A stretch of 64,000 nucleotides of DNA, taken from positions 186,001 through 250,000 of the forward strand of contig NZ_JAADZV010000008.1 in the NCBI RefSeq assembly GCF_010645075.1, read 5' to 3'. The translations under genes and the position numbers were made by a program. The notes beneath the pieces were generated by a model. The model saw nothing but the letters and a program-made list of their open reading frames with translations, did no database searches and was not told the DNA's origin. Each line of letters opens with the position of its first letter. Positions within the stretch are counted from its first letter, which is position 1. The DNA is from Flavobacterium limi. GTDB taxonomy: Bacteria; Bacteroidota; Bacteroidia; Flavobacteriales; Flavobacteriaceae. Below, in pieces: positions 31,632-62,346 of the stretch.

Positions 31632-33086
31632 TTAATTGCCTTCTGTTATTACTTTCTCTAAATTCCTCATTGCAATTACTTTGTATTTATTTTCTTTTAT
31701 AAACTGAAATAATTCCTTCATGGATGCTATGGTTGTCGAATAATCCGGATGAATCACATCAGGAGTACCATGAAATGTTAAAACAATAATGTCTCCTGCA
31801 TGGAGATTTTTAAGTGCCATTGTTACCCGCTCCATATGTTTATCAGAAGATATTACAGTGTAACTGGGTATAGCAAGTATCGAATCTATTTGGGGATTGT
31901 ATGTTTTGCTTGAGCCTGCTCTGGCATATTTATAGCCTCTTTGCTTTAAAATTCGCTGAGAAATACTGTCATAGCGATTTCCCGGATAAGCAAATGAAAT
32001 TGGTTTCGGGATTTTAAATTCGGCACATTTTTCTTCGACATAATTAACTTCCTTCTCAATATCTTCGGGACTTAATTTGGTAACATTTTTATGATGACCG
32101 GTATGATTTCCAATTTCAAAACCCTTTTTATAAAGTTCCTGAATCTGGTTCCAGGTCATGTATTCCTTTTTCTCATCCGGATTTCGAGCAGGAAATTCGC
32201 ATACAAAAAAAGTCGCATCATACCCATATTCAGACAATAAAGGAGCCACATTATTGTAATGGGTGATTTCTGCATCATCAAAAGTTAGAATTACAATAGG
32301 TTTTCTTTTTGAGGTTTTTTTCGAAGAATTTTGAAATAATTTTTTCATCGCAACAGCATAACGCCTGCCCAATTCCTGAGCCGAAGGTGTATCAAAATGT
32401 AATTGATCTCCTTTATCTGTCAACCCTTCTGAAGGAACTACAGCTGTATTCGTGACTTGATCAGGAAGTGAATTTATTATTTTGTTGATGTAATCTTCTT
32501 TGTTAAAACGTCCAATTTCTCCGGCAACAAATGGCAGGTCAGGGACATTTAAATCTTTTCTGAGATTAGCAACAAGTTCTTTTAAATTTTCTAAATAGAT
32601 TTTCGATTTTTCAGCATCATTGTCTGATTCCCCCTGATGCCACAGAATTCCTTTTAGAGTTCCTTTTTGCATCGCAATTTTGGCACGCGCCACAGCCTCA
32701 TCGTAGGGAAAATTATTAAAATACTTTGCTCCGTATTTCCAGACTTTGATAGGGGGGCCTCCCCATGCACAAGGGATCAAACCTATTGTTACATTTTTTT
32801 GATCTTCAAGCATTTTTTTTGAAAAACTTATTCCGGGACCTACACCGGCATAATCTCTGTCAAAATGCATCGGATCTTTGGCTGGTATCCAATTATTGGT
32901 TTTGTCAAGCATTAGGATATTCTCCGGAATAACTTCGTCTTTTGTTTCTACTTTTCCACGTCCCGACATATTGGATTGCCCAATGAGTAAATAAAGATCA
33001 TACGGTTTTGAATTGGCAGTCTGACTGTAAGTATTAAGAATGACACCAAAAAAAATGAACAAGCATAATCTTAGTATATTTTTCAT
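31632..33086 (-). CDS. Two-domain esterase: SGNH/sialate-O-acetylesterase-like plus NodB polysaccharide deacetylase
   Basis: 484 residues with signal peptide ending at TYSQ. Residues about 28-250 are an SGNH-type acetylesterase: Ser38 in IGQSNMSG, WHQGESDN (about 149-156) and a C-terminal DQLH (Asp227/His230). Residues about 262-480 are a NodB (CE4-like) domain: TFDDA (Asp270/271), the metal-binding NHTGHH (His328/His332) and FAYPGNRY. Both active sites look complete, so the protein should remove O-acetyl groups and possibly a second acyl or N-acetyl group from the glycan. The gene is 9 bases after GH78, so translation is probably coupled. The fusion in one chain is unusual; the order of action is unknown. 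Confidence 0.85.
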   Translation of the reverse strand: MKNILRLCLFIFFGVILNTYSQTANSKPYDLYLLIGQSNMSGRGKVETKDEVIPENILMLDKTNNWIPAKDPMHFDRDYAGVGPGISFSKKMLEDQKNVTIGLIPCAWGGPPIKVWKYGAKYFNNFPYDEAVARAKIAMQKGTLKGILWHQGESDNDAEKSKIYLENLKELVANLRKDLNVPDLPFVAGEIGRFNKEDYINKIINSLPDQVTNTAVVPSEGLTDKGDQLHFDTPSAQELGRRYAVAMKKLFQNSSKKTSKRKPIVILTFDDAEITHYNNVAPLLSEYGYDATFFVCEFPARNPDEKKEYMTWNQIQELYKKGFEIGNHTGHHKNVTKLSPEDIEKEVNYVEEKCAEFKIPKPISFAYPGNRYDSISQRILKQRGYKYARAGSSKTYNPQIDSILAIPSYTVISSDKHMERVTMALKNLHAGDIIVLTFHGTPDVIHPDYSTTIASMKELFQFIKENKYKVIAMRNLEKVITEGN

Positions 33087-47695: not shown

Positions 47696-49204
47696 TTAAT
47701 TCAGTTTAACTGTTTTTATTTTTTCTTTCCAGCCCAGGTATCCATTCGCCGGCAAGTCATTATTAAGGTCGGCTAAAACCTGTTCAGTTTGGTTTTTAAC
47801 AAGATTCGAAAGTTGCTCGATACTGCTGTAAATATTACTTTTTAGCCCCGATAAATAAGCGGCACCTAAAGCAGAAACATCCGGATTTCGCTGCTTGTTC
47901 AGCGGAATTCCCAATAAATCAGCTAAATAATGAATGACAAATTGGTTTTGAGTCAAACCTCCGTTTACCGAAATAGATTTTAATGGCGCTTTCATATCTT
48001 TTGCCATAGCCTCAACCACATCTTTTATCTGGTAGGGAATACTTTCCAAAGCCGCTCTGACAATATGATTCTTAGTGGTTCCGAAAGTCATTCCTTCAAT
48101 GGATGCTTTTCGGCTCATTTGCCAGTGTGGCGCGCCTAATCCGCTAAAAGCCGGAATCAGATAAACGCCTGCATTGTCAGCAATAGCTGTTGCCATAGTG
48201 GCTGTTTCTGCCACATTGGAGAATAATTGTAATTCGTTTTTCAGCCATTCTATAGTAGAACCACAGGAAACGATAGCCCCTTCAAGAGCATAATCTACCC
48301 GGTCTTTCGTACTCCAGCAAATGGTTGTCAGCATCCCGGAATTGGATAAAACAGCTTCATTTCCAATATTCATCATAATCGAACTTCCAGTTCCCAGTGT
48401 GACTTTGGCAGTGCCTTTTTCAAAACAGCCTTCTCCAAAAGTAGCTGCATGGGAGTCACCAATCAAAGCTGTGATCGGAATTGTAATGGTCGTAGTATCG
48501 TTCAGAATCTGTTTTAGATCAAACTTTCCAAAATCATGTGAAGAAGGGCAGGCGTGAGGCAGGTTTAATTTGCTCAATCCCCATTTTTCAAGAATTTCTG
48601 TATCCCATTTTAGGGTATGAATATTGAAAAGCAAGGTTCTGGAAGCGTTTGTATAATCGGTTTTGAAATGAGTTCCATTAGTAAGCTTGTATAAAAGCCA
48701 GCAATCTACGGTACCAAAATACACTTCTCCATTTTCGACTTTCTTTTTTAATTCGACATCATTTTGTACCAGCCAAAGTAATTTAGTTCCCGAAAAATAA
48801 GGGTCTAGAAGTAAACCGGTTTTTTGTTTGATAAAATCATTTTGCCCTTTTTTAATTAAATCGGAACAGATATTAATCGAACGTTTGCAAGCCCAGACTA
48901 CTGCAGGGGCCAATGCTTTTCCGTCTTTGTCCCAAAGTACAAATGTTTCTCTTTGGTTACTGATTCCGCATGAAACAATATCGGCGAGCTGCAATCCCAG
49001 ATTGATAAAATTATTCAGGCAAAGACGAACAGAATCCAGCACATTTTGATAAATATCTTCCGGATTTTGTTCTACAAAACCATTGTCAAAATAATTCGTT
49101 TTGAGATCTACACTGCCTTTGGCAACAGCAAGTCCTGATTCGTCAAAAAGGATAGTTTTAGTACTGCTGGTACCCTGGTCAATAGCAAGAATATATTTTT
49201 TCAT
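47696..49204 (-). CDS. FGGY-family carbohydrate kinase (glycerol-kinase-like; possible apulose kinase)
   Basis: 502 residues. The N-terminal ATPase motif is YILAIDQGTSSTKTILFDE. Further family features are SCGISNQRETFVLWDK, DSHAATFGEGCF, TLGTGSSIMMNIG and the C-terminal signature GGLTQNQFVIHYLADLLGIP followed by DVSALGAAYLSG. FGGY kinases phosphorylate ketoses, pentuloses or glycerol with ATP. The sequence looks close to glycerol kinase in places, but the operon (isomerase, two transketolase halves, ribose-type importer) argues for a ketopentose such as D-apulose or D-xylulose. It is the last gene of the operon, 51 bases after the permease. The specificity is an inference from context. Confidence 0.88.
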   Translation of the reverse strand: MKKYILAIDQGTSSTKTILFDESGLAVAKGSVDLKTNYFDNGFVEQNPEDIYQNVLDSVRLCLNNFINLGLQLADIVSCGISNQRETFVLWDKDGKALAPAVVWACKRSINICSDLIKKGQNDFIKQKTGLLLDPYFSGTKLLWLVQNDVELKKKVENGEVYFGTVDCWLLYKLTNGTHFKTDYTNASRTLLFNIHTLKWDTEILEKWGLSKLNLPHACPSSHDFGKFDLKQILNDTTTITIPITALIGDSHAATFGEGCFEKGTAKVTLGTGSSIMMNIGNEAVLSNSGMLTTICWSTKDRVDYALEGAIVSCGSTIEWLKNELQLFSNVAETATMATAIADNAGVYLIPAFSGLGAPHWQMSRKASIEGMTFGTTKNHIVRAALESIPYQIKDVVEAMAKDMKAPLKSISVNGGLTQNQFVIHYLADLLGIPLNKQRNPDVSALGAAYLSGLKSNIYSSIEQLSNLVKNQTEQVLADLNNDLPANGYLGWKEKIKTVKLN

Positions 49205-49255
49205 TTATTTTTTACAGTAAAAAAAGTTTTTTAGTAAATTAAGTATAGACAGGAA

Positions 49256-50230
49256 TTATTTGTTTTTTTGATTCATCTTATCAATAATTACTGCTAATAA
49301 AATAACGAATCCTTTTACGACCTGCTGCCAAAAAGGCGAGACATCCAGTAAAACCAATCCGTTATTCAGTACCCCGATAATTACGGCTCCGATTACAGTT
49401 CCGGTTACTGTACCAATACCGCCGGAGAGTGAAGTTCCGCCAATAACTACTGCTGCGATTGAGTCCAATTCGTAACTTGTACCGGCATTTGGCTGTGCTG
49501 AGTTTAGCCTTGAAGTTACTAAAACACCACCTACGGCAGCCATCATTCCGGCAATTCCATAAACTGCCAGTTTAATTTTATTGATATTGATTCCTGATAA
49601 AAATGCTGCCTTTTCATTTCCCCCGATAGCATAAATATATCTTCCGAAAGTTGTCTTTTTAGTTAAGAAAACCACAATCAGTACCATGAATATGGAAATC
49701 CATACCGGTACCGGAATTCCTAACATCCATCCTGAACCGATAAATTCGAATGCGGTCCCCAGATTAGAAATAGGAATTCCTTCTGTATAAAGCATTGTTA
49801 ATCCACGGGCAATGGTTAACATCGCCAGCGTCGCTACAAAAGGAGGGATGGAGAATTTCGTAATTACCCAGCCGTTGAAGAGCCCTAAGACTAGGCCAAT
49901 CAGTACAGATACTAAAATGGCGCCTAAAACGGTAAAGCCAACAAATAAATCCATTGACTCAAATGCAAGCCCGTTTTTTAATAATCCGGCACAGACGGCT
50001 GCGGTGAAACCTAATACAGAACCTACCGAAAGATCAATTCCAGCCATGAGAACAACTAAGGTCATTCCGACAGAAATACAAACGTTAACAGAGATTTGTC
50101 TTAATACATTCCAGAGATTGGCACTGGTCATGAATTTGTCAGACAACAAGCTGATAAATAGACATAAAAGAAAGAGTGCAATTAAAGATTGCGATTTTTT
50201 AATAAGAGGGTGGTTTAAGGAGATAGTCAT
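49256..50230 (-). CDS. RbsC-type sugar ABC transporter permease
   Basis: 324 residues, about 9-10 hydrophobic segments, with the family motifs NLWNVLRQISVNVCISVGMT, GIDLSVGSVLGFTAAV, SIPPFVATLAMLTIARGL, YAIGGNEKAAFLSGI and SIAAVVIGGTSLSGGIGTVTG. It forms the inner-membrane channel of a ribose/xylose/autoinducer-2-type importer together with the RbsA-like ATPase (14 bases upstream in the operon) and the binding lipoprotein. Such importers are uncommon for sugar uptake in Bacteroidota, which mostly use SusCD plus major-facilitator permeases. The length is typical. The cargo is probably a pentose, by context. Confidence 0.94.
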   Translation of the reverse strand: MTISLNHPLIKKSQSLIALFLLCLFISLLSDKFMTSANLWNVLRQISVNVCISVGMTLVVLMAGIDLSVGSVLGFTAAVCAGLLKNGLAFESMDLFVGFTVLGAILVSVLIGLVLGLFNGWVITKFSIPPFVATLAMLTIARGLTMLYTEGIPISNLGTAFEFIGSGWMLGIPVPVWISIFMVLIVVFLTKKTTFGRYIYAIGGNEKAAFLSGININKIKLAVYGIAGMMAAVGGVLVTSRLNSAQPNAGTSYELDSIAAVVIGGTSLSGGIGTVTGTVIGAVIIGVLNNGLVLLDVSPFWQQVVKGFVILLAVIIDKMNQKNK

Positions 50231-50244
50231 AGTTATAGTGAGGA

Positions 50245-51735
50245 TTATTCCGGTAAAGCCGATTTTAATAATTTATCTTCATTCGCTTCAGAGGCTAAAT
50301 AGGAAGCTTTAATTTTTCCTTCAGCCATTACTAAAATCCGATCCGAAAGGGCTAGTATTTCGGGGATTTCAGAAGAAACTAATATGATACTCATGTGGTT
50401 AGCAGCGAGTTCTTTTATCAGGTTGTAAATTTCATTTTTAGCATTGATGTCAATTCCGCGTGTAGGCTCATCCATCATTAAGATTTGCGGATTGGTCGCG
50501 AGCCATTTTGCCAGAACTACTTTTTGTTGATTTCCACCACTTAAATTTTGGCACAACTGCATTTCAGATGGTGTTTTGATGCGCAACTTTTCAATATAAT
50601 CTTTTGAAGCAGTTTTGTCTTTCGATGGTTTCAAAAGCCCAAAAGTGGGCAGGTTTGTCAAACTGATATTGGATGAAATATCCATTCCTAAAACCAGTCC
50701 TTCTGTTTTGCGGTCTTCGGTTACAAAAGCCAATCCGTTTTCAATAGCATCTTTTGGTTTTTTATGAAAGGTGTTTTTTTGATCAATTTCTAAATTATAA
50801 ACGCTATTCGATGGATGCATACCGAATAAGGTTTCCAAAAGTTCAGTTCTGCCGGCCCCCATCAAACCAAATATGCCCAGAATTTCTCCTTTTTTCAATT
50901 CGAAAGAAATGTTATGAAGGAGTTTTCTTTTTTTGTCGTTTGGATTAACAAGGTGAAGGTTATCTACCTTTAAAATGGTATTTTGAAATTCAGTATTGGT
51001 GTTTTTTTTCTCAATCAAAACATCACGTCCTACCATTTTTCGAATTAATTCCTGCTCCGTAGTGTTTTTCATTTCTCCCTCATCTATGCTGTTTCCGTCT
51101 CTTAATACAGTATAGTTTTCGGCAATTTTGAATAATTCATCCATTTTATGAGAAATGTAAACAATGGTTTTGCCTTCTTTTTTAAGCTCATAAATAATAC
51201 GGTGCAGGTTGTCTATTTCTTTGTCGCTTAGGGCAGAAGTAGGTTCGTCCATTAAAATAACATCGGCATTACATAACAATGCTTTTGCAATTTCGATCAA
51301 TTGCTGTTCACCAACTTTTAGATGCTGTACCAGGGTTTTTGTCGAAACGTTCAATTGGATTTTTTCAAAAAGACGTTTTGCTTCCGTTTCCATTTTTGCA
51401 GCATCCAACAGTCCCAGTGAAGTTTTTAGTTCTCTTCCCAGAAATAAATTTTCGGTGACACTAAGTTCCGGAATCAGGTTCAATTCCTGATGGATAATGG
51501 CAATCCCGGCATTTTGTGCCTCTTTTATATTCGAAAAAGAAACTGTTTCTCCGTTTAACTGAATTTCACCATCGTATTGGGTATAAACGCCTGTCAGGAT
51601 TTTTAGCAGGGTAGATTTTCCCGCTCCGTTTTCTCCCAATATGGCGTTGACTTTTCCAGGATAAAATTTAAAATTTACCTGATTAAGTGCTTTTACCCCC
51701 GGGAATTCTTTTGATATGTTTATTGCTTGTAACAA
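50245..51735 (-). CDS. RbsA-type sugar ABC transporter ATPase (two nucleotide-binding domains)
   Basis: 496 residues with two ATPase halves. The first has Walker A GENGAGKST, signature LKVGEQQLIEIAKAL and Walker B VILMDEPTSAL. The second has the degenerate Walker A GLMGAGRTE, signature LSGGNQQKVVLAKWL and ILMMDEPTRGID. This duplicated arrangement with a weakened second P-loop is the rule in the CUT2/ribose family. The protein energises import through the neighbouring permease. It is separated from the DUF2291 gene by one base, so translation is likely coupled. Confidence 0.95.
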   Translation of the reverse strand: MLQAINISKEFPGVKALNQVNFKFYPGKVNAILGENGAGKSTLLKILTGVYTQYDGEIQLNGETVSFSNIKEAQNAGIAIIHQELNLIPELSVTENLFLGRELKTSLGLLDAAKMETEAKRLFEKIQLNVSTKTLVQHLKVGEQQLIEIAKALLCNADVILMDEPTSALSDKEIDNLHRIIYELKKEGKTIVYISHKMDELFKIAENYTVLRDGNSIDEGEMKNTTEQELIRKMVGRDVLIEKKNTNTEFQNTILKVDNLHLVNPNDKKRKLLHNISFELKKGEILGIFGLMGAGRTELLETLFGMHPSNSVYNLEIDQKNTFHKKPKDAIENGLAFVTEDRKTEGLVLGMDISSNISLTNLPTFGLLKPSKDKTASKDYIEKLRIKTPSEMQLCQNLSGGNQQKVVLAKWLATNPQILMMDEPTRGIDINAKNEIYNLIKELAANHMSIILVSSEIPEILALSDRILVMAEGKIKASYLASEANEDKLLKSALPE

Positions 51736-51736
51736 T

Positions 51737-52348
51737 TTACTGAAGTTTAATTTGTGACGGAATAATTAAAAGGTCAGTAAACAAAGTCTGTTTTTTGTTT
51801 AATTTGATCGCACCTGAAAATGAAATGCTGTCACCAATTTTTACATTTTTGGTTTGTTTTGGGATTTCATTTCGAACGATCTCATTTAAGCTCTCAGATA
51901 CTTTGTTAAATTGGGCATTGGTTTTAAAATCGGTTAGTTTAACTAAACCGGAAGCGTCTCTCAGATCATTTCCAAAAATATATTTGGTGTCAATGAAAAC
52001 AACACCATTCTTTTCGTCAGCAATGGTGTAAATGCCATCTTTGATGTCGATGATTTTTCCGGTGCTTTTGATCATAAAATAAGCTGAATTTCCGATACCT
52101 AATCTGTTTCCATGTTTTGTAAAGGCAGCTTCCTGATTTGTTTTTATGGAAGTAATCAGGTCAGTTAAGGCAATTGTTTTTTTACTTTTTAAAATTCCTT
52201 TGTAATAAATCGAATCGGCGAAAGCTTTAAAGTCAAAAGATTCCTTTTGTGTTTTTTTTATATCACTCAGTTTTTTAAAATACACCGAATTGTACCCTAA
52301 AATGGCTATTATAAGGAAGGCTAAAATATAAATATACTTTTTTTTCAT
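51737..52348 (-). CDS. DUF2291 family membrane-anchored protein of the ABC importer operon
   Basis: 203 residues with one N-terminal membrane helix (YIYILAFLIIAILGYNSVYF) and a periplasmic beta-rich part. The segment FGNDLRDASGLVKLTDFKTNAQFNKVSESLNE fits the DUF2291 pattern (N.RDASGL...F.N...F..IS..LN). Members are repeatedly encoded inside ribose-type ABC transporter operons and are described as predicted periplasmic lipoproteins; here there is a membrane helix but no lipobox. A role in transporter assembly or substrate delivery is inferred from location alone. It sits one base before rbsA and two bases after the binding protein gene. Confidence 0.8.
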   Translation of the reverse strand: MKKKYIYILAFLIIAILGYNSVYFKKLSDIKKTQKESFDFKAFADSIYYKGILKSKKTIALTDLITSIKTNQEAAFTKHGNRLGIGNSAYFMIKSTGKIIDIKDGIYTIADEKNGVVFIDTKYIFGNDLRDASGLVKLTDFKTNAQFNKVSESLNEIVRNEIPKQTKNVKIGDSISFSGAIKLNKKQTLFTDLLIIPSQIKLQ

Positions 52349-52350
52349 CT

Positions 52351-53271
52351 TTAATAGTCTTTTATGTTTGCTGCATTGATCAGTTCAACTTCTACCGGAA
52401 CCCTTTGAGGGAATGTCTTTCTTCCTTTAAAATACTCATCTGCATATTGGGCTGCTGTCTGAGCCATTACTTTAGGAAACTGCATTCCTGTAGCCACAAT
52501 TTTCTTTTCTCTGATTTTTTCTACTACATCACCGGCACCATCAAACCCAAAAATTTTGACTTTATATTCTTTACCAGCTGCTTGCAGGGCCTGAAAAGCG
52601 CCCATTGCCATAGCATCGTTCCCACAAAATACGGCATCAATATCAGGGTTTGCCTGCATAATTGTTTCTAAAACTTCCATAGCCTTAGTTCTGTCAAAAT
52701 TGCCGCTTTGCTGTGCCACCATTTTCAGATTAGGAAAGTTATCTACAACAGAGTGGAATCCTCCTGATCTTGCCCAGGTGTTATTGTCGCCTACAAGTCC
52801 TAAGATTTCTACATACTTTCCTTTTTCTTTTAATTCTTTTACAAATTCGATTCCGATAGCAACACAACCTGAGTAGTTATCAGAAAGAATCTGACTTGTA
52901 GCTGCGTCATCCGCATTTACTTCTCTGTCCATGCAAAAAACAGGAATTCCAGCCGTTTTAGCTTTTAGGATACTCGAAATGGAACCGTCAGAATCTGTAG
53001 GGTTTAAAAGAATGGCATCATAACCCGAAGAAATAAGGTTTTCAAAATTATCCGATTCGATAGCAGGATTGTTCTGCGAATCAAATATTTTGGCTTCGTA
53101 ACCCAATTTTCGTGCATTTTCAGCCGCTGATTCCGCCAGCATCACGAACCACGGGTTATTTAATGTGGAAACCACAACTGCAATTTTAGGTTTGTCGGCC
53201 TTTTCTTTTGAAGAGCAGCCTAAAACCAAAACCAGTATAATCAGCACTAAGGAAAGGTGTTTTATCTTCAT
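52351..53271 (-). CDS. RbsB-type sugar-binding lipoprotein
   Basis: 306 residues. Signal peptide II with lipobox LVLGC (Cys about 19), then a type I periplasmic-binding fold: IAVVVSTLNNPWFVMLAESA, IFDSQNNPAIESDNF, AILLNPTDSDG, PVFCMDREVN, LVGDNNTWARSGGF, FCGNDAMAMGAFQAL and GFDGAGDV. The Asn, Asp and Arg residues typical of ribose-binding proteins (NNPWF, DRE, RSGG, ND.A, D.A) are in place, so a furanose or pyranose pentose ligand is plausible. It overlaps the upstream transketolase-C gene by 4 bases (ATGA), indicating translational coupling. The lipid anchor replaces the soluble form of Gram-negative enterics. Confidence 0.94.
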   Translation of the reverse strand: MKIKHLSLVLIILVLVLGCSSKEKADKPKIAVVVSTLNNPWFVMLAESAAENARKLGYEAKIFDSQNNPAIESDNFENLISSGYDAILLNPTDSDGSISSILKAKTAGIPVFCMDREVNADDAATSQILSDNYSGCVAIGIEFVKELKEKGKYVEILGLVGDNNTWARSGGFHSVVDNFPNLKMVAQQSGNFDRTKAMEVLETIMQANPDIDAVFCGNDAMAMGAFQALQAAGKEYKVKIFGFDGAGDVVEKIREKKIVATGMQFPKVMAQTAAQYADEYFKGRKTFPQRVPVEVELINAANIKDY

Positions 53272-54224
53272 AAGTTTAACAGGTTTATAGCAGTATTTCT
53301 TAGTCCTTCAGCAGATATGCCGTAATGATTGAAAATTTCGGTTTGCGAGCCTGATACAGTATGATCATCCGGCAATCCTATAATTTTGAATTTGTTGGAG
53401 CATCCGTTTTGGAATAATAATGAAGCTACGGCTTCGCCTAATCCGCCATTGATGGAATGCTCTTCAACTGTAATTATTGGTTTTTTATTTTCGGCTGCAG
53501 CCAATAATAATTCGGTATCCAAAGGTTTAATAGTATGAAGACTGATTATTTTACAGCTAATATTATATTCTTTTTTCAGAAGTTGAGCCGCTTCAACACA
53601 AGGAAGTACTGCTTCACCAGTGGCAATAAACGTTAAATCGCTTCCTTCCTGAATAATACGTCCTTTTCCAATTTTAAAATCTGCAGCATTTGAATTTAGG
53701 TTCGCAGGCATAGCTTTTTTGCCAAAACGCAAATATATTGGGCTTTGCATTTCAGCTGCTTGTTTGATGGCTTCCGCAGTTTCATAATTGTCAGCAGGTG
53801 CTACAATGGTAATGTTATTAATGGCTCTCAACACTGCATAATCATGTAAGCTATGGTGCGTGGTTCCTAAAGCCCCGTAACTAACTCCGGCACTGATCCC
53901 AATTAATTTTACCGCATTATCAGAATAAGCGACATCATTCTTAATTTGTTCCAAAGCCCGTGCCGTAAGAAAACAGGCAGGGGAGACGGCAAATGCTTTT
54001 TTACCCATGCTCGCTAATCCTGTGGCAACACCTACCAGATTTTGTTCGGCAATACCCACTTCAACAATTTGTTCAGGATATTTTTGTCCAAACGGCACTA
54101 GCTTTCCTGAGCCACGAGAATCACTTGTGACAACCGTAATATCTCTGTCTGTTGCTGCTAATGACTGAAGAACTTCAGAAAAGACTTCGAGATTAGCGGC
54201 GTCAGTTGTTTTTATTTCTTCCAT
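53268..54224 (-). CDS. Transketolase C-terminal subunit (pyrimidine and C domains)
   Basis: 318 residues from the ATG at 54224. A longer frame begins 93 bases upstream but would run inside the N-subunit gene and encodes an arginine-rich, implausible leader; MEEIKTTDAANLEVFSEVLQ is a normal start. Family motifs: VTSDSRGSGKL, VGIAEQNLVGVATGLASMG, HHSLHDYAVLRAI, TIVAPADN, YLRFGKKAMP, and the C-domain LHTIKPLD and VEEHSINGGLGEAV. It pairs with the N-terminal subunit to make one thiamine-diphosphate enzyme that moves a two-carbon ketol unit. The start codon overlaps the N-subunit stop by one base. Split transketolases inside sugar operons often serve dedicated pathways, for example apulose 4-phosphate cleavage. 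Confidence 0.92.
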   Translation of the reverse strand: MEEIKTTDAANLEVFSEVLQSLAATDRDITVVTSDSRGSGKLVPFGQKYPEQIVEVGIAEQNLVGVATGLASMGKKAFAVSPACFLTARALEQIKNDVAYSDNAVKLIGISAGVSYGALGTTHHSLHDYAVLRAINNITIVAPADNYETAEAIKQAAEMQSPIYLRFGKKAMPANLNSNAADFKIGKGRIIQEGSDLTFIATGEAVLPCVEAAQLLKKEYNISCKIISLHTIKPLDTELLLAAAENKKPIITVEEHSINGGLGEAVASLLFQNGCSNKFKIIGLPDDHTVSGSQTEIFNHYGISAEGLRNTAINLLNL

Positions 54225-55063
54225 TATTTTAAAACAGTTTCGAGTTCTTGTAATTCTTTGTCTAACTCTGCAATAGCCAGATCGTATTGTTCTTTTGAAG
54301 GAACGCCATGATGCCATTTTAATACGTTTTCCATATAGCTGACTCCTTTTCCTTTAGTCGTATGTGCGATGATAAAAGTAGGTTTTCCGCTTTCTAGTGG
54401 TAAGCTGTTAAGCGTTTGCGAAAGTTCTTCTAAATTATGACCATCAACATGAGCTACTGCCCAGCCAAAAGCTTCCAGTTTTTTGTCAATCGGCTCTAAG
54501 CCCATAACGTCAGCATTTGGAGCTGTAATTTGAAGTTTATTATAATCTAAAATAGCACAGAGGTTGTCTAATTTGTAATGAGAGGCAAACATCATGGCTT
54601 CCCAGTTTGAGCCTTCAGCCATTTCACCGTCACCTAAAATAGTAAACACTTTTACCGATGAATTATCTCTTTTTGCTGCCAAAGCCGCTCCTGCGCAAAT
54701 CGGGAGACCGTGTCCTAATCCGCCGGTATTTTGTTCAATTCCGGGAATAGATTTAGTTGGATGTCCTATGTAAGGGGAATTGTACTTGCAAAGTGATAAT
54801 AAATCTTCTTCAGGAAAAAAACCTTTGTCAGCTAAAACTACATACAAAGCTTCAACAGAGTGGCCTTTGCTCTGAATAAACATATCTCTGGTTTTAGAAC
54901 TGAAATTCTCCGGAGAAACGTTCATAACATTATTGTATAATACATTCAGGATATCTACAATTGAGAGACTTCCTCCTGTATGACCAGCCTTTGCGTTGTA
55001 GATGTATTTGAGTATTTTTTTTCTACTCTCTATTGATTTTCGTTTTAATTCTGCAATGTGCAT
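54224..55063 (-). CDS. Transketolase N-terminal subunit (thiamine diphosphate-binding)
   Basis: 279 residues. Conserved elements are KAGHTGGSLSIVDIL (27-39), SKGHSVEALYVVL, GGLGHGLPICAGAALA, and the thiamine diphosphate/Mg motif starting at GDGE (144-147) and ending at Asn about 175 (DYNKLQ). HTTKGKGVSYMEN and KWHHGVP lie near the C-terminus. All cofactor residues appear present. It is 52 bases after the isomerase gene and shares one base with the C-subunit gene. With that subunit it equals a full transketolase. The presence of a dedicated copy beside an isomerase and an FGGY kinase points to catabolism of an uncommon pentose. Confidence 0.93.
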   Translation of the reverse strand: MHIAELKRKSIESRKKILKYIYNAKAGHTGGSLSIVDILNVLYNNVMNVSPENFSSKTRDMFIQSKGHSVEALYVVLADKGFFPEEDLLSLCKYNSPYIGHPTKSIPGIEQNTGGLGHGLPICAGAALAAKRDNSSVKVFTILGDGEMAEGSNWEAMMFASHYKLDNLCAILDYNKLQITAPNADVMGLEPIDKKLEAFGWAVAHVDGHNLEELSQTLNSLPLESGKPTFIIAHTTKGKGVSYMENVLKWHHGVPSKEQYDLAIAELDKELQELETVLK

Positions 55064-55115
55064 CTTAATTCATTTAGTGTTTGTAAACTTTGCAACCTAG
55101 TGTGATTACTTCAGA

Positions 55116-56519
55116 TTAGTGTCTGTAAACTTCCCAACCCATATAATTACCTAAAGCTTCTTCTAAGATTGCGGCTGTTTTTGAGGCATTCATAACTACG
55201 TGGTGCTCAAATCCGTTTTTACAGATGTATTGCATTAGTCCTTGCAGGTCAGGTATTTGTGCTACAGCTCTGTTTCCGAAAGTATTTAGGGCATCATCCG
55301 TAAGTTCACCTTCACCAATATATACTTTAATGATTCCTTTTGGGTCATCAGTGCTGATTCTTCCGTAAGTAAGCGGCATTGCCGGTGTTCTTCCGTCTAA
55401 GGCACCATATGTGTTTTCAACTCCCACGGTAGTTCCTAAGATAGGAGCATTGCTTAACTGAATGTCTGGTAAAAATGATTTAGCCCAGTTGCCACAGTGG
55501 AATAAAACACATTTTTCAGGATCATCGGCATAGTTGTTATTCCAGTCTACCAATGCACTTGGAGAGCCTGAAGCCAATTGCATGGCATACATACTCAATG
55601 TTCCGGTTACATCGACCTCACAGGCACTCGGAAGCATATTTTCGCTCATGATACTCATGCTTGTACATACATTACAGCCATAATTTTGCTGTAGTGAAGT
55701 CCAGCATTGAATAGCAGTAGCATCTAAGGCATGTTCTTCCATGAAATCTTTCAAAACCACATCTAATTTTGCGATTTGAATCATGGCTTCATTAGGCGCT
55801 TTGCTGTTAGGAACGTAAGCATTTATAGATTCCAGATGTTTTTTAACCGAGTCGTCATCAGCAGTTAATTTATTTGCTTTTCCTAAGATTTCAGATAAAT
55901 CAGCTGTCGTTACGGTAATACCATGTCTTTGTAATATCTTCTCGGAGTAACGAACCGTATTAAATGCTCCCGGTCTTGCTCCAATGGCACCGATACGAAC
56001 GTTGCGCATTCCTTTTACAACCCGGCAAACGGCTGTGAAATCTAATAGGTCTTTATGAAAAACAGGATCAGACGGACTCATGACGTGCTGACTTGTAAGT
56101 GTGTATTTTATACCGTACTGGTATAAATTATTACAGACAGAAATTTTTCCACACCAGGAATCACGTCTGTTGACTACATTCATTTTGGTTAATTCATCAG
56201 GATAGGCCTGTATCAAAACAGGGACATTTAAATTAGCCAGTTTTAAGGTATCAGCCACTCCTTTTTCATCCCCGAAATTAGGGAGCAAAACAAGTACTCC
56301 CATAATTTCGTCCTGATGTTTTTTGAATAAGTCGGCACATTTTTGTGCTTCTTTATAGGTTTCTACTCCGCCAAGTTTGGTATCAGTACTGTCTAATAAA
56401 ATAGGCTTTATATTTAATTGGGCAAAAACTTCGATAATTTCAAATCTGGCTTTTTCGACTAAACTATCTGGAAAAAAATCTCTGTTTCCAATTATTACTC
56501 CTAATGTTGATGTTGTCAT
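55116..56519 (-). CDS. L-fucose/L-arabinose isomerase-fold sugar isomerase
   Basis: 467 residues, close in length to the family. The active-site layout of L-fucose isomerase is visible: Glu301 in ACEVDVTG, Asp325 exactly 24 residues later in LVDWNNN, and His341 in LFHCGNW. In E. coli FucI the metal-binding Glu and Asp are also 24 apart (337 and 361). Other landmarks are VLVLLPNFGDEKG, RIGAIGARPGAFNTVRYSEK, and a Cys-rich patch QCWTSLQQNYGCNVCTS. The enzyme should convert an aldose to a ketose with a divalent metal. The operon suggests a pentose, possibly D-apiose; fucose itself is unlikely because no aldolase is present. An A-rich leader separates it by 49 bases from the DeoR gene. Confidence 0.88.
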   Translation of the reverse strand: MTTSTLGVIIGNRDFFPDSLVEKARFEIIEVFAQLNIKPILLDSTDTKLGGVETYKEAQKCADLFKKHQDEIMGVLVLLPNFGDEKGVADTLKLANLNVPVLIQAYPDELTKMNVVNRRDSWCGKISVCNNLYQYGIKYTLTSQHVMSPSDPVFHKDLLDFTAVCRVVKGMRNVRIGAIGARPGAFNTVRYSEKILQRHGITVTTADLSEILGKANKLTADDDSVKKHLESINAYVPNSKAPNEAMIQIAKLDVVLKDFMEEHALDATAIQCWTSLQQNYGCNVCTSMSIMSENMLPSACEVDVTGTLSMYAMQLASGSPSALVDWNNNYADDPEKCVLFHCGNWAKSFLPDIQLSNAPILGTTVGVENTYGALDGRTPAMPLTYGRISTDDPKGIIKVYIGEGELTDDALNTFGNRAVAQIPDLQGLMQYICKNGFEHHVVMNASKTAAILEEALGNYMGWEVYRH

Positions 56520-56568
56520 TCTGTTTCTTTTTGTTTTTTATTTCTTTTTTTTGTTTTTTTTCTTCCTT

Positions 56569-57330
56569 TTAAGCTACTATTACTTCAATTTCATTTTCCC
56601 TGAAAACTTCTTTATGTTTTTCTTCGATCCCGTTATCTGTAATAATATAATCAATTAAGGATAAGGCCCCTAAACTGGCCAAAGCGCTTTTTCCAATTTT
56701 TGTACTGTCTGCTACCAGATAAGTGACTTCTGCAGCTTCAATCATAGCTTTTTTGACTACCAGATCACTAATGCTGGGATAGGTGAGTCCTGACTTTAAA
56801 GAGATTCCGGCTGTAGCTAAAAATAATTTTTGAACGTTCAGGCCTTTGAAAAAGTCAGCTGCTTTCTGCCCTGTTAATGATAATGTAGGAGGTTTAAATT
56901 CACCGCCTGTCATTATCACTTCAATATCCGGATCGGTTCCTAATAATAATGCGATATTTAATGCATTGGTAATCACTGTTAATTGTTTATGGCCTTTTAG
57001 TTTTTTAGCAATTTCAGTTGTTGTTGAACCTGAATCAAGGATAATTGTATCTCCATTTTCTATAAATTCTAAGCATTTCTGGGCAATAGCCGATTTTTGC
57101 TCTAAATTTTCCTGGCGTTGTAAGGAGAAGCTTCGTACCTGATCTTCTACGTTTTTTATGCTTGCGCCCCCGTGTTCCTTGAGTATAAGACCTTCCCCTT
57201 CCAGCTTTTCAAGGTCTTGGCGTATAGTTACCTCGGTAACTTTAAATAAACGGGCTAAATCGTTAACTTTTGCAAAACCATCCTCTTTTAAAAGGTCTAA
57301 TATTTTTTCTCTTCTTTGATTTGGTAACAT
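56569..57330 (-). CDS. DeoR-family transcriptional regulator
   Basis: 253 residues. N-terminal winged helix: QRREKILDLLKEDGFAKVND, then KVTEVTIRQDLEKLEGEGLI and the basic wing KEHGGAS. The DeoR C-terminal sensor domain shows the family motifs ENGDTIILDSGSTTTEIAKKL, VITNALNIALLL, IEVIMTGGEFKP, SLTGQKAADFF, LADSTKIGKSALASLG (here VADSTKIG) and IITDNG. Such repressors respond to phosphorylated sugar intermediates. It is the first gene of the operon, 49 bases before the isomerase gene, and the promoter in front of it carries a duplicated 12-mer that is a candidate operator. It probably represses its own operon until the kinase product accumulates. Confidence 0.94.
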   Translation of the reverse strand: MLPNQRREKILDLLKEDGFAKVNDLARLFKVTEVTIRQDLEKLEGEGLILKEHGGASIKNVEDQVRSFSLQRQENLEQKSAIAQKCLEFIENGDTIILDSGSTTTEIAKKLKGHKQLTVITNALNIALLLGTDPDIEVIMTGGEFKPPTLSLTGQKAADFFKGLNVQKLFLATAGISLKSGLTYPSISDLVVKKAMIEAAEVTYLVADSTKIGKSALASLGALSLIDYIITDNGIEEKHKEVFRENEIEVIVA

Positions 57331-57354: not shown

Positions 57355-57407
57355 AACAAATATAAACAAAAACAAATAAATATAAATTATTCAATAACAA
57401 ATATAAA
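57355..57407 (-). promoter_or_regulatory. Duplicated 12-mer, candidate DeoR operator
   Basis: AACAAATATAAA occurs at 57355-57366 and again at 57396-57407, 41 bases apart (about four helical turns); the minus strand reads TTTATATTTGTT. One copy overlaps the -7 element, the other is in the leader. Between them is the related AACAAATAAATA (57371-57382). Direct repeats of this type are known for DeoR proteins. Confidence 0.45.
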
Positions 57408-57427
57408 ACAAAGTAAAAGAAAAACAA
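57398..57427 (-). promoter_or_regulatory. Promoter of the sugar catabolic operon
   Basis: On the minus strand a TTG (complement of 57425-57427), 19 bases of spacer and TATATTTG (complement of 57398-57405) match the Bacteroidota -33/-7 consensus. It would give a leader of about 60 bases before the DeoR start. Confidence 0.55.
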
Positions 57428-57664
57428 AAGAAAGTAAAAGAAAATAAAACAAAGTATTGCTATTTTTTAAAATGGAAAGATTTAAAATTTTTTAAGAATA
57501 AATATTAAATATGAAACTTAATAATTTACAATCTTTTTTTAGTTATTTTTGATATAAGTATAAAGTGAAATGATCATCTCATGTGTCAATATTTAGGTGG
57601 TTTGCGAAGGTTTGTAGTGATGATATGTAGTTAGCAGAATTGTAGAATTAAAATCTCAGAGTAA

Positions 57665-58572: not shown

Positions 58573-61500
58573 ATGAAAAAAAACATTTTACTAGTAATTT
58601 TTTTAGCTTTCTTAACGATTCAGCTGAAAGCACAAAGCTACGATATTGTAGTAGCCAAAGATGGATCTGGAAATTATTCCAGTGTGCAGGCTGCAGTGAA
58701 CGCAGCTCCTTCTAATAGTTCAGCCAGAACTAAAATTTATATTAAAAATGGCACTTATTATGAAGTAATTACCGTTCCTTCAAATAAAACCAATCTGACA
58801 TTAATAGGGCAAAGTTCAACAGGAACTATTTTGACCTACAATAATTATGCATCCAAAATTAATCCGGCTACTGGCACTGCTTACGGAACTTCAAATTCAG
58901 CCAGTACTTTCATCAATGGAGCAGGCTTTTATGCCTTGAATCTTACCTTTGCCAATTCTTCAGGCCCTGTCGGACAAGCTGTTGCAGTTCGCTCTACTGC
59001 GGATAAAGCTGTTTTCAAGAACTGCCGTTTTTTAGGAAATCAGGATACTTATTATCCTCACAGTGGTAGATCCTATCACGAAAACTGTTATTTTGAAGGG
59101 ACTACAGACTTTATTTTTGGAGGAGCTATTGCTTATTTTCAAAACTGCCAGCTTTACACAAAAGGAGGGAGTTCTATAACTGCAGCTAATACAGCATCGC
59201 ATCTGGCTTACGGTTTTGTATTCAATAACTGCCAGATTACAGGTTCAGGAAGCAATATTACTGATCTTGGCCGCCCATGGGGTGGATATGCATCTGTTAC
59301 TTTTATGAATACAAGTATGACTAATGCAATTAAGGCAGCTGGCTGGAATGACTGGGGTAACGCTGCCAATCAGGCCACCGCACGTTTTGCGGAATACAAT
59401 AATTCCGGAGCCGGAAATGTTCCTGCATCCAGAGTTTCCTGGTCAAAAAAATTAACCGCTGCTCAGGCCACATCTTATACAAAATTAAATGTTTTAAAAG
59501 CAAATAGTGCCAATCCTCAGGTTACTGACAACTGGAATCCGGATACTATTATTAACTCTGTTACAACTGGAGGAACTGCTTTCCAAACTATTCAGGCCGA
59601 AAATTATACCAGCCAATCGGGCACTCAGACAGAAACAAGTTCTGAAGGAACTGATAATGTTGGGTATATAAATAGTGGTGACTGGATTAAGTTTGAAAAT
59701 ATAGATTTTGGTTCAGGTGCAGGCAGTTTTCTGGCAAGAGCTTCAACAGCAGGAACAGGAGGCACCATTTCTATAAGATTAGGAGGGACGTCAGGTACAG
59801 TAATTGGAACGTGTACTGTAACACCAACTGGCGGATGGCAGGCCTATTCAAACTTTACATGCCCTGTAAGCCAGATTTCTGGAATACATGATGTATATCT
59901 TGTTTTTGAAGGCGGAAGCGGGTATCTGTATAATCTTAATTATATAAGCTTTTCTGCTCCTCAGGCAGCAGCTGTATTAATAAAACATGGAGCAGGAGGA
60001 TCCAGTCAAACCGTAGCAATAAATACTGCTATTACAGGATTTTATTATAATTGGGAAAATGCTGCCACAGTAACTGTGTCAGGATTGCCATCCGGAATCA
60101 CAGCAACGATCAATAATTCCGCTAAAAGCATAACTTTTAGCGGTAGCCCAACTGTCAGTGGTACTTTTAATTATACAATTAATACAGTAGGTGGCAATCC
60201 AAATGCAACAAAATCAGCAACTTTTACAGTAACTGCATCGACTCAAAAGATTGCTGCTGCTCAGGCGGTTACTTCGCCGGCATTTCCGGGTGCTGAGGGT
60301 TTTGGACGTTACACCAGTGGTGGTCGCGGTGGAAGAGTAATCTACGTTACCAACCTGAATGATTCAGGTGCCGGAAGTTTAAGGGAAGCAGTTGCAGCAA
60401 CAGGAGCCAGGACAGTAATGTTCAAAGTATCGGGAATAATTGCCCTTAATTCAGATTTAAGAATTAATAATGGAGATATTACCATTGCAGGTCAGACAGC
60501 ACCGGGGGATGGAATCTGTCTGAAAAATTATTCGGTAAATATTGATGCAGATAACGTAATCATCCGATATATTCGTTTTCGAATGGGGGATCAGGCACAA
60601 CATGAAGGTGACGCTATAGGCGGACGGAACCATAAGAATATTATCATTGATCACTGCTCTATGAGCTGGAGTACTGACGAATGTGCTTCATTTTATGATA
60701 ATGAGAACTTTACTATGCAGTGGTGCATGATGTCTGAAAGTTTACGTGTTTCAGTCCACGATAAGGGAACTCACGGTTATGGGGGAATCTGGGGAGGAAA
60801 AAAAGCCTCATTTCATCATAATATGCTGGCACATCATGATAGTCGAAATGCCCGTTTTTGTGGAAGCAGATATTCAGCACTCCCTAATCTTGAAATGGTT
60901 GATTTTAGAAATAATGTTCTTTATAACTGGGGAGGCAACAGTGCTTATGCTGCCGAAGGAGGATCATACAATCTTACCAATAATTATTACAAAGCAGGTC
61001 CGGCAACAGGCTCAGGCGTAAACGACAGAATTATTTCTCCAAGTCCGGATAATGGAACGAACTCACAACCCGCAGGTGTCTGGGGAAGCTTTTATGTAAA
61101 TGGAAATTATACAACTGCAAATTCAACAACTTCTGGTAATAACTGGAATGGGGTGGATCCTAATCCGTCCTCAAAAAACAAAGCTGAGCTGCGTGTAAAT
61201 ACGGAATATAATTTTGGTGAAATGACTACGCATTCTGCAGCAAATGCCTACAACAGGGTATTAGCATACGTAGGGGCAAGTCTTAAAAGGGATATTGTGG
61301 ACAGCAGAATAGTATCAGAAGCTACTAATGGAACTTTTACTTATAACGGATCAAATGGAAGTACTAAGGGTTTGATAGATACGCAATCTGATGTTGGCGG
61401 ATGGCCAGCTTACAATTCAGCAACAGCACCTACAGATACAGATAAGGATGGAATGCCGGATAACTGGGAAACTGCCAATGGTTTGAATAGTAATAATATT

Positions 61501-62346
61501 TCAGACGGAACCGCTTACACACTGAGCACTGTATATACTAATTTAGAAGTTTATATTAATGGATTAGTAGCAGCTATTACTACAAATCAAAATCAAAATG
61601 GAACTGCTAACTATACAGATCCTAATCCTGGTACAACTACTACAGAAATTTCTATTAATGAAAATGAAACGGGTTTCTGTTTTGTAGAAGGCACAATAGA
61701 CAGCAATAACGCCGGATTTCAGGGAGCTGGTTTTGCCAATGCAAATAATGCTGTTGGTGCAGGAATTGAGTGGTCTGTGAATACTTCCTCTGGAAATTAT
61801 ATACTTCGATGGAGATATTCTAATGGTGGTACTACTCCAAGAGGAGCTAAGATAATTGTGGATGGTGTTAATATGACTACCGCGGCTTTTAATACCACAA
61901 CTAATTGGACTACCTGGGCAGAAAATTCAAGCTCTTTAGTTACAGTAGCACTTTCTGCAGGTAATCACATTATCAGGTTAGAAGCAACTACATCATCAGG
62001 TTTGGCTAATATTGATAAAATAGAGGTGGAAGGAATTAATCCTGTGGCAGTTAGTTGCAGTAGTACATCGAAAAAAGCTTCTATTGAAACAATCGATGCT
62101 GATGAAGTGAAGACTGAAGTAAAAATATATCCTGTACCCTTCAAAAATGAATTTTATATCCATCTTGGTACTATTGGAAAGGCGAAACAGATTTTAATAT
62201 TCAATATGCTTGGACAGCAAATCTATACAATAAACGAAATCACTGACCCAATTGTAAAAGTGAATATCAATGCACCTGCAGGTACATATGCAGTTAAAAT
62301 AATGACTGATAATGGTGTTGTAAATAAAACCATTGTCAAAGAATAA
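58573..62346 (+). CDS. Multimodular pectinase: CE8 pectin methylesterase, CBM6, PL1 pectate lyase, CBM35, T9SS domain
   Basis: 1257 residues with signal peptide ending LKAQ. CE8 methylesterase (about 24-325) has the complete motif set: QAVA (135-138), QDT with Asp158, GTTDFIFG with Asp179, LGRPW with Arg234. Next are a CBM6-like module (about 335-460; [24 protein letters not shown]), an Ig-like linker, a PL1-type pectate lyase (about 570-870; [41 protein letters not shown]), a CBM35-like module (about 1025-1165), and a T9SS type A sorting domain ([11 protein letters not shown] to the end). It would be exported through the type IX system, strip methyl esters from homogalacturonan and cleave the product. 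Monocistronic, ending in a strong terminator. Confidence 0.95.

Follow-up and report, generated by a model that had tools for sequence, protein, structure and literature searches.

D-apiose is a rare branched pentose found in the pectin of plants. The D-apiose transketolase cluster (aplK, aptA, aptB, apsI) is said to have been originally reported by Carter et al. in 2018. The pathway is entered in MetaCyc as PWY-8089, and the apiose cluster of Escherichia coli SE15 spans ECSF_RS02670-02715 (PMC13001218). Escherichia strains with an AplK/AptAB cluster and Pectobacterium carotovorum, which carries apsI, grow on D-apiose and K-12 does not; in Escherichia, two oxidoreductases take the place of the absent apsI isomerase (PMC13001218). 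Here we analyzed a 64,000-nucleotide stretch of the Flavobacterium limi genome (contig NZ_JAADZV010000008.1, positions 186,001 to 250,000), hereafter the window, in which an earlier note had proposed that a nine-gene minus-strand block at 47696-57330 is a D-apiose catabolic operon. This proposal gained support from the homology of the isomerase, kinase and transketolase to those of Enterobacterales, from apiosidase-family genes in or beside related operons, from co-occurrence across genomes, and from a GH140 apiosidase in the organism's own genome. At a probability of about 0.83, we consider that the operon imports and catabolizes D-apiose by the transketolase route. The pathway itself is already known, and it appears to be widespread among the Bacteroidota.

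Gene content and relation to the Enterobacterales apiose-type clusters

All nine reading frames of the block are open, separated by gaps of -4 to +52 bases, and Pfam and NCBIfam agree with the gene families named earlier for every one of them. The block begins with a DeoR-family regulator (56569-57330, 253 amino acids, PF00455/PF08220) and a predicted D-apiose isomerase of the ApsI type with the L-fucose/L-arabinose isomerase fold (55116-56519, 467 amino acids, PF02952). These are followed by the two transketolase halves: an AptA-type N-terminal half (54224-55063, 279 amino acids, Transketolase_N, PF00456) and an AptB-type C-terminal half (53268-54224, about 318 amino acids, Transket_pyr and Transketolase_C, PF02779 and PF02780). 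The listed start of the latter, ATG 54317, lies too early; alignment of homologues places it at ATG 54224, which has one base in common with the stop of the N-terminal half. The importer consists of a ribose-type solute-binding lipoprotein (52351-53271, Peripla_BP_4, PF13407), a DUF2291 predicted periplasmic lipoprotein (51737-52348, PF10054, 152 bits), an ATP-binding cassette (ABC) ATPase (50245-51735, two ABC_tran stretches) and a permease (49256-50230, BPD_transp_2, PF02653). The last gene encodes a predicted apulose kinase of the AplK type, from the glycerol-kinase branch of FGGY (47696-49204, 502 amino acids, FGGY_N/FGGY_C in Pfam, with NCBIfam in agreement).

Every component except the regulator has a counterpart in Enterobacterales apiose-type clusters. 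A search against apiose-pathway proteins, as the earlier note had advised, found AptA and AptB homologues encoded as a pair together with an AplK-group FGGY kinase. BLAST identity to SE15 was 46% for AptA, 41% for AptB, 37% for the kinase, 34% for the binding protein, 41% for the ATPase and 43% for the permease, although 37% identity to AplK would by itself be compatible with other GlpK-like kinases. BLAST gave no match between the DUF2291 proteins of the window and SE15, which belong to a common family by annotation and Pfam; DUF2291 is annotated in the SE15, Rahnella, Sodalis and Klebsiella clusters too. Alongside these homologous parts, the E. coli SE15/Pectobacterium cluster differs in its SorC-type sugar-binding regulator in place of DeoR, in having, in Escherichia, two short-chain dehydrogenase/reductase (SDR) oxidoreductases in place of the isomerase, in gene order and in its binding pocket.

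The complete set, including the isomerase, was found in clusters of Rahnella (CP042359), Sodalis (NZ_CP006570) and Klebsiella (CP110761), on which plasmid tblastn searches converged, whether AplK or the window isomerase was the query. Identity to AplK is 70-72% for their kinases. Between AptB and AplK they encode an isomerase with 54-56% identity to the window protein, a higher figure than for any other gene compared. Since an isomerase of the window family stands beside AplK-like kinases, the isomerase family of these apiose-type clusters is that of the window, which also bears on the question, left open earlier, of which fold the apiose isomerase has. These clusters differ from the window in having another regulator, located mid-cluster, and in placing the importer genes first; they are likened to it by sequence, and the growth data come from other strains. 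The Klebsiella record (pINF102.2, our L085) is linear, 11.6 kb long and consists almost entirely of the apiose-type cluster with its isomerase, and might be a piece of an assembly instead of a true plasmid.

We further scanned bacterial genomes for the isomerase and retained the best 80 of 307 relatives, all from Bacteroidota, with carriers of the homologous block in Flavobacterium, Maribacter, Arenibacter, Emticicia, Runella, Mucilaginibacter, Spirosoma and other environmental Bacteroidota. Gene order was counted in the 67 loci of at least 19 kb, where the ends of the fetched stretches cut some genes off. Both transketolase halves were present in 67/67 of these long loci, compared with 62-66 for the importer parts and DUF2291, 62 for the kinase and 56 for the DeoR regulator. 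The exact window order of eight genes was kept in 61 of the 67, and this grouping is therefore not due to chance: the nine-gene block is a stable pathway unit.

Active sites of the isomerase and the kinase

The Glu-24-Asp metal pair that had been read from the isomerase sequence corresponds to E301 (codon 55617-55619) and D325 (codon 55545-55547), both predicted metal ligands. Together with H341 and H439/H440, these residues are invariant across 29 homologues with identities down to 26-27%, including those from Listeria and Monoglobus. An AlphaFold model built on 53 Bacteroidota sequences (mean predicted local distance difference test score 73.4, predicted TM-score 0.80, with poor active-site loops) found its best matches among L-arabinose isomerases (TM up to 0.71), with D-arabinose and L-fucose isomerases next. 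The sole NCBIfam match of the isomerase, the sulfoquinovose isomerase SftI (NF048012), reached 95 bits against a cut-off of 700; none of the other operon genes is of a sulfosugar type, and we rejected this assignment.

When compared with solved glycerol kinases, the kinase keeps the equivalents of the E. coli GlpK pocket residues R83, E84, W103, Y135 and D245 (E. coli numbering) and carries serine at Q246 and F270. Both changes, Q246S and F270S, are common to SE15 AplK and 71 of the 72 operon kinases compared, including those of Monoglobus and Listeria. As F270 packs on the glycerol backbone, its loss might leave room for a larger substrate, such as apulose with its glycerol-like tertiary carbinol. 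Identification as glycerol kinase GlpK was rejected on these pocket changes and on a score of 535.8 bits against the TIGR01311 cut-off of 590.35. The kinase does score above the threshold of NF000756, a looser model at subfamily level, and no glycerol kinase exceeds the TIGR01311 cut-off anywhere in the organism's genome, the nearest GlpK-like protein being the operon kinase itself; for this reason we retain the GlpK reading as a caution.

Apiosidase-family and PF07632 proteins associated with the operon

Apiosidase-family genes lie in or next to related operons of other bacteria. In Monoglobus pectinilyticus, the genes for isomerase, transketolase and kinase are succeeded by one for a DUF5060/PF13204 protein. 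The Listeria operon has a gene for a PF13204 protein (313 bits; best solved relative 8t9w, named apiosidase) after the same enzyme genes and a phosphotransferase system (PTS) gene. Both operons resemble that of the window in isomerase family, split transketolase and a GlpK-like kinase with Q246S/F270S; they differ in an isomerase of 27% identity and in the apiosidase-family gene within, and in Listeria the PTS replaces the ABC importer. Of the 80 loci from Bacteroidota, five (L019, L022, L023, L047, L080), from Emticicia, Arcicella and Ilyomonas, have relatives of the Monoglobus protein inside the operon, and six others have relatives of the Listeria protein within about 7 kb of it.

We then examined co-occurrence in 251 genomes of the organism's family, mostly from different genera, 12 of which carry the isomerase. 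PF13204 exceeded its cut-off in 11/12 operon carriers vs 27/239 other genomes (Fisher p=2.6e-9). GH28, used as a control for a pectin lifestyle, was enriched as well (11/12 vs 47/239). Within GH28-positive genomes only, the excess persisted both for all PF13204 matches (10/11 carriers vs 17/47, p=0.0012) and for strong ones (9/11 vs 8/47, p=9e-5), by which we rejected the idea that a pectin lifestyle explains the association entirely; because the genomes are related, these p-values overstate independence. Membership of PF13204 falls short by itself of proving apiosidase activity.

The single PF13204 protein of F. limi is a GH140-family apiosidase candidate that aligns with 437 bits to 3kzs/5msy (BT1012). 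It is encoded with GH78, a BT_1020-like beta-propeller protein and GH28 (L092:2504-13093, contig C21 of the genome), in what looks like a rhamnogalacturonan II (RG-II)-type locus, and would give the organism a source of free apiose.

A further group of secreted proteins, of family PF07632 (Sde182, nucleoside-hydrolase-like), was found in or near the operon at 46 of the 80 closest Bacteroidota loci, with up to four copies per locus. In the family sample, 8 of the 12 isomerase-positive genomes have a copy no more than 20 kb away from the isomerase, vs 0.4 expected. The copy in the F. ajazii operon (L001:17505-18794) bears a DUF5060 domain, as does the apiosidase-type protein of Monoglobus. F. 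limi has one copy on a different contig (L093:6825-8120), 64% identical to that of F. ajazii and adjoining a rhamnogalacturonan lyase. Aspartates D34, D41, D42 and D247 are invariant and were assigned by motif to a nucleoside-hydrolase metal site, and a structure model resembles 2yhg and, to a lesser degree, nucleoside hydrolases. Nucleoside hydrolases act on beta-ribofuranosides, and apiose occurs in plants as beta-apiofuranosides. The simplest hypothesis for the PF07632 proteins near the operon would be a second, non-GH140 class of beta-D-apiofuranosidase that uses the calcium-aspartate site of nucleoside hydrolases, a tentative idea that we hold to be possible and would sooner bet against than for. 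Of the 15 titles listed in our literature search on the domain, none pointed to an apiosidase and most concerned plant-pathogen effectors.

Elsewhere in the window, 58573-62346 encodes one 1257-residue protein in which pectinesterase and CBM6 domains are joined to a long C-terminal region that has no Pfam match at the threshold used, and 31632-33086 encodes a SASA-type acetylesterase fused to a polysaccharide deacetylase domain.

Alternative substrates, regulation and implications

Several observations weigh against apiose. The best solved relatives of the importer's binding protein are Thermotoga maritima 2fn8 (340 bits) and Rhizobium etli 5ibq/4ry0 (216 bits). At the positions compared, its pocket is the same as in the T. 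maritima ribose-binding protein; with the proteins of the Enterobacterales isomerase clusters it shares 10 of 14 positions, S, W, N and F replacing P, F, D and W. The R. etli protein, reportedly solved with both ribose and apiose, has a pocket resembling that of the Enterobacterales proteins, and the pocket comparison does not separate the two sugars. On the same side stands the lack of any apiosidase adjoining the operon within the window, and it is from cluster position that we infer the Enterobacterales isomerase to be the published ApsI. The enzymes of the T. maritima ribose operon are in turn predicted to act on D-arabinose; this operon is induced on ribose and contains a ribokinase, and a transketolase and two sugar enzymes are described for it (PMC3750489). 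It is similar to the window in binding-protein pocket, transketolase and two sugar enzymes, and unlike it, as far as its description goes, in the LacI regulator, the ribokinase and the assignment to ribose and D-arabinose.

In a D-arabinose pathway, the isomerase would form D-ribulose and the kinase D-ribulose 5-phosphate, with the transketolase as an extra pentose-phosphate enzyme. The D-arabinose isomerase 3a9r is among the fold matches and the T. maritima prediction points the same way, but this leaves unexplained both the apiosidase-family genes in or beside homologous operons and the fact that every long locus has a dedicated split transketolase; the T. maritima assignment is itself a prediction, and that genome, searched as a control, holds a PF13204 match. 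We judge D-arabinose improbable. Use of D-ribose, through a ribose importer aided by accessory pentose enzymes, would agree with the ribose-type pocket and with the induction of the T. maritima operon, yet we consider it very improbable: whereas that operon includes a ribokinase, the window operon has none and none in the genome exceeds the TIGR02152 cut-off (best 100 bits vs 299.65), and an aldose isomerase of this type is superfluous to the ribokinase route. The hybrid binding pocket and a GlpK-like pocket altered at Q246 and F270, which could take several small ketoses, might also suit another small branched or short sugar (hamamelose, an erythrose or threose derivative) or a mixed apiose and ribose importer serving a broader pathway. 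Here too the apiosidase association and the homology to growth-tested apiose clusters favor apiose, and we give this option very little credence.

We directly observed the gene content and its conservation, homology to the clusters of apiose-growing strains, active-site residues and the association with apiosidases; the substrate and each reaction in F. limi we infer. In the proposed D-apiose pathway, secreted apiosidases from the separate RG-II-type locus would free apiose, which would pass the inner membrane via the ribose-type ABC importer. The isomerase would convert D-apiose to apulose and the FGGY kinase apulose to apulose 4-phosphate. From this, the split transketolase would pass a two-carbon ketol group on to glyceraldehyde 3-phosphate, so that xylulose 5-phosphate is formed and dihydroxyacetone phosphate remains.

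The operon is probably under repression by the DeoR protein, which would act via repeats 5' of its own gene. Its nearest NCBIfam model is AgaR (213 bits, under the cut-off of 260), and T-rich direct repeats of the TTTTCTTTT / CTTTCGTTT type lie upstream of it at about 57392-57456 on the minus strand. Repeats of this kind also precede DeoR in Flavobacterium loci and are reminiscent of AgaR-type DeoR operators; we regard them as a candidate operator only.

The predicted D-arabinose enzymes, the transketolase and the PF13204 match together suggest that the Thermotoga ribose operon hides an unrecognized apiose pathway, and that its predicted D-arabinose enzymes merit retesting with apiose. One Klebsiella homologue of AplK carries the annotation 'Uncharacterised pentose kinase TM0952', and a literature search on TM0952 and apulose found nothing. 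PF07632, a family without known function, may likewise contain apiosidases. For the Bacteroidota, our results suggest that many environmental members use apiose via an ABC importer and the transketolase route. The isomerase could serve as a marker for the capacity to use apiose, and the operon would supply the final step in the use of RG-II and apiogalacturonan by these bacteria.

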